DNA from: Candidatus Kaiserbacteria bacterium GW2011_GWA2_52_12
GTDB lineage: Bacteria; Patescibacteriota; Minisyncoccia; Phycocordibacterales; UBA2100
Reading direction: 5' to 3'
DNA: 38,444 nt
Assembly: GCA_001004345.1 (NCBI GenBank)
Contig: LCQW01000003.1
Coordinates: 1 to 38,444, forward strand
A model generated the notes under the pieces. It saw only the letters and a program-made list of their open reading frames with translations, did not search any database and was not told the origin of the DNA. A program made the translations under genes and the position numbers. Positions 13,763 through 17,888 of this stretch are shown here, one piece after another (position 1 is the stretch's first letter; each line of letters starts with the position of its first letter).

Positions 13763-15454
<1,692 letters not shown>

Positions 15455-15831
15455 TAGTGAAAAATTTTATACCACAAAACCCGATTGCGCGTATGCAACC
15501 GGATGATACGTTGCTTTTAGGTTTGAATTGTCCCTTCGACTTCGCTCAGGGTGATTCTTCCAGAATCAGAGGCGCACAATTTCGGGCGATGCTTTTTGTA
15601 GAAAAAGTTGCAACTTTGACCTAAGGATAGGGGCCGTAAGGCCGCCGAAGCGGCATACCGCCGCCGTCCTTGGATAAGTCACCATCGCCCGAAGCTGTGC
15701 GCCTCTGGATGTATAATAGAAATGCGCTCGCAGGCGCACCTATTTAGAATAATATCATATAGAATAAATTTGTCAATAGTATATTTGGGCCTTGTTGAGC
15801 TCTTTTTTGGACTTCGACAAGCCTCACTCCT
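15455..15831. other. 377-base non-coding stretch between pilB and ruvB
   Basis: No supportable gene. It holds the hairpin-forming CCCTTCGACTTCGCTCAGGG (15532-15551), a small GATTCT/AGAATC hairpin (15553-15567) and the large structured inverted repeat 15567-15707. After these come TATAAT at 15712-15717, a short TGCGC/GCGCA hairpin and an AT-rich tract (15741-15785) before ruvB. The TATAAT may drive ruvB from about 110 nt upstream. Confidence 0.7.
15567..15707. ncRNA. Putative structured RNA or MITE-like inverted repeat
   Basis: Outer arms CAGAGGCGCACA / TGTGCGCCTCTG (15567-15578, 15696-15707), a 3x3 internal loop, then TCGGGCGATG / CATCGCCCGA (15582-15591, 15683-15692) form a 22-bp stem. Inside are hairpins CTTTTT-GTAG-AAAAAG (15592-15607), a CC(T)AAGGA/TCCTTGG stem, GGCC-GTAA-GGCC and GCCGC-CGAA-GCGGC. 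On the minus strand the last loop is a stable cUUCGg. No known class (RNase P, tmRNA, SRP RNA, common riboswitches) was recognised. The strand is unresolved; a non-autonomous mobile repeat is an equally good reading. Confidence 0.4.
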
Positions 15832-16833
15832 ATGAAAAATGAAGGTGAAAAAAGTCCGCGCACACTCGATCATGCGCTTCGACCGGCTGATTGGGCGGAA
15901 TACGTGGGCCAGCCTACGATAAAAGAGAACCTCCGTATTCTCCTTTCGGCTGCCAAAAAACGCGAGCACCAGCCGGAGCACGTCCTTTTGTATGGTCCGC
16001 CAGGCCTCGGTAAAACGACGCTCGCGCATTTGATAACCAAAGAGATCGGCTCGAATCTGCGCTCCACATCCGGTCCCGCTATCGAGCGTGTGGGTGATCT
16101 CGCGTCCATCCTCACCAATCTCTCCCCCGGCGATGTGCTTTTTATCGATGAAACCCACCGCCTCAACCGTACCATCGAAGAGATACTCTACCCCGCGATG
16201 GAGTCCGGGGTGCTTGATATCGTAATAGGCAAAGGACCGGCTGCGCGTACGGTGCAGCTTGATCTCCCTCCGTTCACGCTCATCGCCGCAACGACGCGCA
16301 TTTCAATGCTCTCCGCACCGCTCCGGTCTCGTTTTTCCGGCGGCACGTTCCGTCTTGCATACTATACGACCCCCGAGATAGCGACTATCCTCAAACGCTC
16401 GGCGCGCGTACTCGGGATTGAAGTGGACGATGAATCGCTGCATGAAATAGCCCGCAGAAGTAGGGCGACGCCACGCACCGCAAATTATCTTTTGAAACGC
16501 GCGCGCGATTTTGCGGAAGTGATGGGCGAGCCGTTCACAATAAAAACCGTAAAAAAAGCACTCGCACTCCTCGAGGTCGACGAGCGCGGTCTCAACCAGA
16601 TCGACCGCGACATCCTGACGATTCTGATCGATAAATATGGTGGCGGCCCCGTCGGATTGAAAACGATCGCCGCTGCCATTTCCGAAGAAGAGGCAACGGT
16701 AGAAGAAGTGCACGAGCCGTACCTCATGCAAATAGGTTTTCTCGACCGCACGCCGCGCGGCCGCACCGTGACCGCGCGGGGCTACGAGCATGTCGGTGCG
16801 AAAAAAGTTCCTTCGCAACAAAAATTGATCTAA
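15832..16833 (+). CDS. ruvB: Holliday junction branch migration helicase RuvB
   Basis: A 333-residue AAA+ motor that drives branch migration together with RuvA. Features: [11 protein letters not shown] near the N-terminus, Walker A GPPGLGKT (55-62), Walker [10 protein letters not shown] (usually DEIHRL), sensor 1 AATTR, the arginine-finger region LSAPLRSRF, and a C-terminal winged helix with [18 protein letters not shown] and [10 protein letters not shown]. Size and motifs match the family. No Shine-Dalgarno or close -10 box precedes the ATG; the nearest TATAAT is at 15712-15717. The yebC gene follows after 10 nt. Confidence 0.97.
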
Positions 16834-16843
16834 ACTACACACC

Positions 16844-17371
16844 ATGTCCGGACATAACAAATGGGCGCAGATAAAAAGACAAAAAGGGGCGAACGACGCG
16901 GCAAAAGGTGTGGTCTGGGGCAAGCTCGGCAAGCGAATCGCCGTGGAGAGTAAAAAAGCGAATGGGGATGTAAATTCTCCAACCTTACGCACACTCATCG
17001 AAACGGCAAAGAAAGCGAACATGCCAAAAGACACTATCGACCGCGCTGTTGCAAAAGGTATTTCGAGTGATGTCGCGCTCGATTCCATCACCTACGAGAC
17101 GTACGGACCGGGAGGAGCGGCCATCATCATCGAATGTCTCACTGATAGTAGAAATCGCACCGCGCAGGAAATAAAACACCACTTGAGTGAGTTGGGGCTC
17201 GCACTCGCCGCACCCGGCAGCGCGCTCTGGGCGTTCGAGAAAACAAGTTTCGGCTACATGCCGAAAACCACCGTCCCACTTTCCGAAGAGGACGACGCAA
17301 AACTTATGGAAATCATGCAAAAAATCGACGAATATGACGATGTGCAGGAAGTGTATACGAACGCGGAATAG
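16844..17371 (+). CDS. yebC: YebC/TACO1-family protein, internally shortened
   Basis: A 175-residue YebC-family protein. Family members act as transcriptional regulators or in translation of difficult (proline-rich) stretches. The N-terminus MSGHNKWAQIKRQKGANDAAKG and the YETYGPGGAAIIIECLTDSRNRT segment are highly typical. The C-terminus DDVQEVYTNAE is the family ending. Normal length is about 240 residues, so roughly 60 residues of the second/third domains are missing between GSALWAFEK and the end. TAAACT (16831-16836) ends 7 nt before the ATG. The order ruvB-yebC-ruvC is a variant of the common yebC-ruvC-ruvA-ruvB cluster. Confidence 0.93.
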   Translation: MSGHNKWAQIKRQKGANDAAKGVVWGKLGKRIAVESKKANGDVNSPTLRTLIETAKKANMPKDTIDRAVAKGISSDVALDSITYETYGPGGAAIIIECLTDSRNRTAQEIKHHLSELGLALAAPGSALWAFEKTSFGYMPKTTVPLSEEDDAKLMEIMQKIDEYDDVQEVYTNAE

Positions 17372-17414
17372 TCGCGCGCGGCACAGAGTCTCAACTTTCA
17401 GGTACACTTCCCTT

Positions 17415-17888
17415 ATGCGTGTTCTTGCAATTGATCCGGGATATGGGCGGTGCGGGATGGCCGTTGTGGAAAAATCTGGCGGTCCGGAAACGCTCATATA
17501 CTCGGCGTGCATCGAGACGTCCGCACAAAGTGACTTTGGAGCGCGGCTCGCCACGGTCGTCGATGAGTGTGCAAAGCTCATCAAGGTTCATGCGCCGGAT
17601 GCGTTTGCGATGGAAAAACTTTTTTTCAGTAAAAATCAGAAGACCGCAATGCGTGTCGCCGAGGTCCGCGGCGCCCTTATTAGTTGCGCAGGCCAAAACG
17701 GGATAGAGGTATTTGAATATTCGCCCGGACAGATAAAAAACGCGGCTGCCGGCTGGGGTGGCGCCGACAAAAAACAGGTCGCTGCCATGCTTCATATACT
17801 CATGAAGATTGATAAAAATATAAAACACGACGATGAGTACGATGCAATAGCGATTGGCCTTACTCATCTTGTGTATGCGCGTAGATAA
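17415..17888 (+). CDS. ruvC: Crossover junction endodeoxyribonuclease RuvC
   Basis: A 157-residue RNase H-fold nuclease that resolves Holliday junctions. It starts MRVLAIDPGYGRCG with catalytic Asp7. The acidic residue in AMEKLFFSKN and the closing HDDEYDAIAIGLTH supply the remaining metal ligands. A longer open frame reaching back to 17187 overlaps yebC out of frame and is rejected. The start at 17415 fits the family, and TACACT (17403-17408) ends 6 nt upstream. Confidence 0.96.
   Translation: MRVLAIDPGYGRCGMAVVEKSGGPETLIYSACIETSAQSDFGARLATVVDECAKLIKVHAPDAFAMEKLFFSKNQKTAMRVAEVRGALISCAGQNGIEVFEYSPGQIKNAAAGWGGADKKQVAAMLHILMKIDKNIKHDDEYDAIAIGLTHLVYARR

Follow-up and report, generated by a model that had tools for sequence, protein, structure and literature searches.

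Several free-standing bacterial RNAs resemble the RNA described here. 6S RNA (RF00013), as passages of PMC8414754 describe it, has a closing stem, a 3'-side hairpin at the junction and an apical stem, in that order, together with internal loops in the apical stem, a promoter and terminator of its own, and fixed, lineage-specific neighbours; the present RNA is alike in each of these respects. In lactic acid bacteria 6S adjoins rarA, which, like the ruvB gene that lies beside our RNA, encodes a recombination ATPase (passages of PMC8414754). Ms1 RNA of actinobacteria is similarly a lineage-restricted stable RNA whose synteny can be traced beyond sequence similarity, according to excerpts of PMC9130861; its neighbours are different, and the likeness is one of description, not of compared structures. 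raiA/ModT RNA is alike in being a free-standing, conserved, structured RNA (excerpts of PMC11706538), and bacterial SRP RNA (RF00169, RF01854) in being a stable RNA of similar size.

The present RNA differs from these in several ways. 6S RNA has a large single-stranded bulge on the 5' side of its centre, whereas here a covarying helix, P2, closes that bubble, and for this reason we have not filed the RNA as 6S. The 6S model spans 187 positions, compared with a core of 119–198 nt here (66 loci), and there is no sequence-structure match between them. raiA is an Rfam family, whereas the present RNA matches nothing in Rfam 15. SRP RNA carries an Ffh-binding motif, and the sequence that we take to be this core motif is missing from the present RNA; Ffh itself is absent from nine of nine genomes. 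No Rfam 15 family matched the element even at E ≤ 10, in agreement with the sequence-only reading, which had assigned it to no known class, and 15 diverse homologous loci searched at the same threshold gave no 6S match, their weak rows being scattered over unrelated families. No description of this RNA class was found in the literature searched. As judged by that literature and Rfam 15, the class is undescribed and has no known relative.

Promoter, terminator and fold of the RNA

The RNA lies between pilB (T2SSE/MshEN ATPase; 13763–15454, plus strand) and ruvB (15832–16833, plus strand) in the window, the whole 38,444-nucleotide stretch of DNA analysed. The long inverted repeat with small hairpins that had been noted here is present, its arms (15567–15591 and 15683–15707) being 25 nt long and 92% complementary, and on either strand the fold is far more stable than chance would give (plus strand, z −7.9; minus strand, z −7.6; 0 of 200 shuffles equally stable). 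The proposed extent of 15567–15739 enclosed a real structure but fell short of the whole unit, which runs on the minus strand from a promoter at 15776 to a terminator at 15479.

The sole promoter-like site across 15400–15900 is on the minus strand (15749–15776) and consists of a −35 TTGACA (15776–15771), a 16-nt spacer, a TG and a −10 TATTAT (15754–15749). It is a sigma-70-type promoter oriented away from ruvB, and the minus strand was recognized as the sense strand because relatives show a promoter of the same type and direction. Among 66 relative loci scanned, the best promoter score was at least 11 in 51 loci and at least 10 in 61, compared with 0.5% and 5.3% of shuffles respectively. A further set of 38 loci, wider in range and without part in choosing the promoter scan, gave similar figures (at least 11 in 28 loci versus 1.4% of shuffles; at least 10 in 36 loci versus 10.3%). 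The consensus fold of 20 relatives also favoured the minus strand (−100.1 versus −93.8 kcal/mol).

An intrinsic terminator hairpin followed by TTTGTGGT is located at 15479–15504 in the same orientation as the promoter. With a strict terminator scan 28 of the 66 loci passed, as against 7 of 66 on the opposite strand and 16 of 660 shuffles. If transcription starts 7 nt past the −10 and ends at the T run of the terminator, the RNA gene would extend from about 15742 down to 15471, giving a predicted minus-strand transcript of about 270 nt (15471–15742). No same-sense gene lies downstream of the RNA, pilB being convergent. The element is almost certainly an independent, free-standing gene for a structured non-coding RNA on the minus strand. 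A ruvB leader or riboswitch was considered and rejected, as ruvB is divergent, pilB is convergent and the RNA is followed by its own terminator. A coding gene was also rejected: core lengths modulo 3 were spread over 24, 24 and 18 of 66 loci, and 50 of 198 sense frames were open.

The conserved core is a covariance-model match of 142 nt (15566–15707, minus strand), scoring 142.4 bits (E 9.8e-35) with the genus model R1, whose training set includes the window sequence. It is closed by P1, a stem of some 22 pairs (5' strand 15683–15707, 3' strand 15567–15591), and every one of its 20 pairs in the model shows covariation in the order-wide sets. Next to it is P2 (5' strand GUGAC, 15678–15682; 3' strand GUUGC, 15610–15614), the helix that closes the would-be 6S-like bubble. 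All five P2 pairs have changes on both sides, and they are among the top covarying pairs of the unguided scan. P2b follows (5' strand CCAAGGACG, 15665–15673; 3' strand CUAUCCUUAGG, 15620–15630), and its 3' strand, with a bulged A and a bulged UA, is presumed to be a site of protein or tertiary contact. The P2b internal-loop motif AGGACG/AUCCU is near-invariant, while most helices change. Beyond P2b is an apical arm of variable length (15631–15664), which has a UUCG loop in the window copy. The P3 side hairpin, CUUU...AAAG (15592–15607), stands immediately 5' to the 3' strand of P1 and is paired in 97–99% of cells.

Relatives vary in the P3 and apical loops and in the loops of the junction. Outside the genus the junction often has an extra insert or hairpin, and in many relatives a fourth hairpin is added there. 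Among the 66 aligned loci the 5' junction linker is 0–3 nt in 45, and in the other 21 it holds an insert of 4–19 nt, often with a weak hairpin of its own.

Compensatory base changes, which the sequence-only reading had set as a test of the structure, were abundant. The order-wide alignment A5 (29 rows) contains 39 pairs, 34 of them with changes on both sides, and 92.3% of its cells are paired; its covariation of 0.546 compares with 0.206 in shuffles and was reached by 0 of 500, and slid structures pair just 41–47% of cells. The widest alignment, A7 (31 rows, 34 pairs), has 93.2% of cells paired and a covariation of 0.624 versus 0.224 in shuffles, again with 0 of 500 reaching it; taking A5 and A7 together, both of which were fitted to the model in a way that favours the structure, slid structures pair 41–50% of cells. 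In A1, 20 loci aligned by plain MAFFT with no model fitting, 23 pairs have both-sided changes and 96.4% of cells are paired, and of five measures there is one, further pair types, on which the structure fails to beat shuffles (106 of 500 reach its value). A structure-free pair scan of 60 rows, whose pairs were compared with the structure by eye, gave its highest ranks to the same helices and revealed no convincing pseudoknot. Rows that are opposite-strand echoes of the palindrome occur in alignments A2, A3, A4 and A6; A1, A5 and A7 are free of them.

Copy number, range and neighbours

The core is single copy in its own genome, where R1 and the broader models R2 and R3 each match at one place, barring a palindrome echo with R1. 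BLASTN detected the sequence in 30 of the 98 genomes that it was run against, and almost all of these belong to the same genus. R1 matched 57 of 195 genomes, including 40 of 52 within the genus, and 16 of 108 genera. In one of the 12 genus genomes that lack an R1 match, G005, a contig ends within the long stem of the RNA (G005:C6:88520, the end of L146), and breaks of this kind will hide copies in fragmented genomes.

Wider searches extended the range to the class. In a phylum sample of 379 genomes, R2 gave matches in 16 of the 17 that belong to the order (the genus itself counted), in 1 of the 15 remaining members of the class and in none of 347 sampled from other classes. A covariance search for homologues, as the sequence-only reading had suggested, was also made with R3, which matched 73 genomes in a class sample of 383: 38 of the 41 from the order (a count that takes in its own genus and family) and 35 of 342 in the rest of the class, spread over 13 families. 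These numbers are subject to strict search filters, so that misses are expected; rows that built R1, R2 and R3 match those models by construction, and opposite-strand palindrome echoes were left out of all locus counts. The 73 include a match in G597 (L144, 29 bits) that has no ruvB, no pilB and no promoter beside it and is probably false. One locus (L133) scored 49.5 bits in the class-wide R3 search and was missing from a further search at default filters. Phages gave no match to the sequence, and viral contigs none to the arm pattern. Three 20-base arm-pattern matches in contigs (L022–L024) had neither ruvB nor pilB beside them and were set aside as chance.

Since the models know nothing of neighbouring genes, synteny provides an independent check even of matches of about 30 bits. 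We inspected 104 genomes, omitting L107, which duplicates the genome of L056. ruvB is 5' of the RNA and divergent in 101 of them, and in 95 of the 104 loci pilB follows on the 3' side in convergent orientation; at L123 and L127 pilB adjoins the RNA and no ruvB was found in the stretch examined. Among the loci obtained by BLASTN, 20 of 20 have ruvB beside the RNA and 19 also have pilB. In sequence comparison, the promoter, the fixed locus, the single copy and the conserved fold are established.

A long inverted repeat is also what a MITE-like or other mobile palindrome would present, and the sequence-only reading had allowed for a mobile repeat of this kind. One copy per genome, always at the same locus, refutes it, as do the compensatory changes, and we give this explanation practically no credence. 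Such constant neighbours might also reflect a local role, exerted on ruvB or pilB. In such a role the element would regulate one of them in cis, via its strong divergent promoter or via the transcript itself, in keeping with its unchanging position (101 of 104 genomes) and a median distance of 113 nt from the core to the ruvB start. An effect of the promoter, however, needs no folded, covarying 140-nt RNA with its own terminator, and matches to pilB lie as far as 1325 nt away; regulation in cis appears distinctly unlikely.

On the far side of ruvB, the yebC (16844–17371) and ruvC (17187–17888) reading frames, as listed, overlap by 185 bases. The RuvC domain begins at residue 79, so the true ruvC start is probably downstream of the listed one.

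Candidate functions

Few stable RNAs are, to our knowledge, kept across a whole bacterial class, and almost all of those that are have central functions. Across a large group of bacteria, tiny and uncultured, the present RNA class has kept one place, its sequence changing around a preserved fold. Its presence in 38 of 41 genomes of the order, its single locus and its near-consensus promoter make the RNA a promising candidate for a core role in the group, as regulator or as particle. The genomes of the host bacteria are tiny and yielded nothing with the Rfam 6S model, and by passages of PMC4508563 and our own tests the hosts lack SRP.

Shape and conservation suggest how the RNA might function. 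The vegetative RNA polymerase would transcribe the gene from the minus strand until the intrinsic terminator ended the transcript, and with such a promoter the RNA may well be abundant. Its own terminator and the convergent and divergent arrangement of its neighbours point to action in trans, where it would form the RNA part of a ribonucleoprotein. A protein, rather than an mRNA, is the likely partner because the constant letters are held within helices or an internal loop and form no exposed seed. We consider it probable that the RNA is independent, trans-acting and protein-bound. The size, promoter and terminator are usual for small regulatory RNAs that pair with mRNAs as antisense. Such RNAs would be expected to keep a seed, and no run of six or more conserved unpaired letters was found; moreover the junction, P3 and apical loops all vary, which makes base pairing with mRNAs very unlikely.

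Our first specific guess for the protein-bound RNA, held with low confidence, is that it may bind RNA polymerase and tune transcription globally, as 6S and Ms1 RNA do. In its strictest form, as a 6S/Ms1-type RNA proper, P1 would take the part of the closing stem and P3 that of the bubble's 3'-side hairpin, and P2 would open on the enzyme. The order of the arms and the 3'-side hairpin fit 6S of lactic acid bacteria, which passages of PMC8414754 place beside rarA, a recombination ATPase gene as ruvB is here. The vegetative promoter and the RNA's own terminator are as expected of such an RNA, and no other 6S was found in 21 genomes with RF00013, an absence that says little given that the control matched just 5 of 14 named genomes. 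Against this, there is no large unpaired 5' bubble and P2 covaries, many relatives have an insert or hairpin at the 5' junction (4–19 nt in 21 of 66 loci), and no Rfam 6S match was obtained even at E ≤ 10. We regard this form of the protein-bound RNA as rather unlikely. If RNA-polymerase binding were shown, the RNA would join the 6S/Ms1 kind.

The protein-bound RNA might instead be the scaffold of another particle unrelated to RNA polymerase, with a part in translation, membrane targeting, the pilus or DNA repair. A near-invariant AGGACG/AUCCU motif and a constant P3 stem within an otherwise fast-changing RNA are consistent with such a scaffold, as is the lack of SRP in the relatives tested and, by passages of PMC4508563, in Parcubacteria. 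On the other side stands the absence from the RNA of what we take to be the SRP core motif. We hold such a scaffold to be a serious possibility, if somewhat short of probable.

SRP RNA itself was considered once RF00169 and RF01854 had given nothing (0 of 9 genomes with each model, in the own genome and eight relatives), and was rejected, the Ffh M domain being missing as well (0 of the same 9 genomes; control 14 of 14). A pattern for the presumed SRP core motif had no match in the own genome and scattered matches in 5 of 21 genomes. The signal recognition particle thus seems to have been lost in the own genome and its eight relatives, as printed for Parcubacteria in passages of PMC4508563, and on this agreement we call the bacteria Parcubacteria-like. 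RNase P RNA and tmRNA were likewise rejected for this locus; their own-genome copies are at G000:C12:6757-7096 and G000:C1:50017-50407 respectively.

Taken at its broadest, the protein-bound reading would make this an RNA shared across the class of Parcubacteria-like bacteria, with no sequence kinship to 6S or Ms1. It would act either as a third RNA, independently evolved, that regulates the polymerase or as the core component of a ribonucleoprotein without counterpart elsewhere, in a lineage that has lost SRP; we advance this only tentatively. The models and coordinates make the RNA directly testable in existing metatranscriptomes.

Leader and flanking sequence

Between the transcript start and P1 is a small 5' leader hairpin (15721–15740, minus strand), which contains GUGCGCCU (15739–15732). 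This is the second copy of a repeat that the sequence-only reading had recorded as AGGCGCAC at 15732–15739, and both the copy and its pairing with 15697–15704 are exact. The mutually exclusive switch built on that pairing did not survive comparison. Leader counts were made on 64 of the 66 promoter-scan loci, those with a promoter score of at least 9, and a leader 8-mer able to compete with P1 (at least 8 nt) occurs in two of the 64, one of them the window; P1 pairs, meanwhile, are kept in 92.7% of cells in the order-wide set. The TATAAT reported at 15712–15717 is also in the sequence. It has no −35 partner, and a plus-strand TATAAT is found in 8 of 64 leaders, so we do not regard it as a working promoter.

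In 23 of 64 loci the transcript opens with a leader hairpin and U's directly after it, an arrangement that resembles a terminator placed very early or a hairpin capping the 5' end. In five loci (L092, L093, L097, L098 and L100) a plus-strand TATAAT within the RNA leader faces ruvB, with an extended −10 (TGCTATAAT) in L092 and L093; here the RNA promoter and a ruvB-facing promoter may overlap and interfere. At the other end of the gene, between the RNA core and the terminator, is a perfect, short REP-like palindrome, CCCTTCGACTTCGCTCAGGG (15532–15551), present in one copy only within the window. Words related to it, such as CCTTCGACAAGCTCAGGA, are found at the equivalent position in some relatives.
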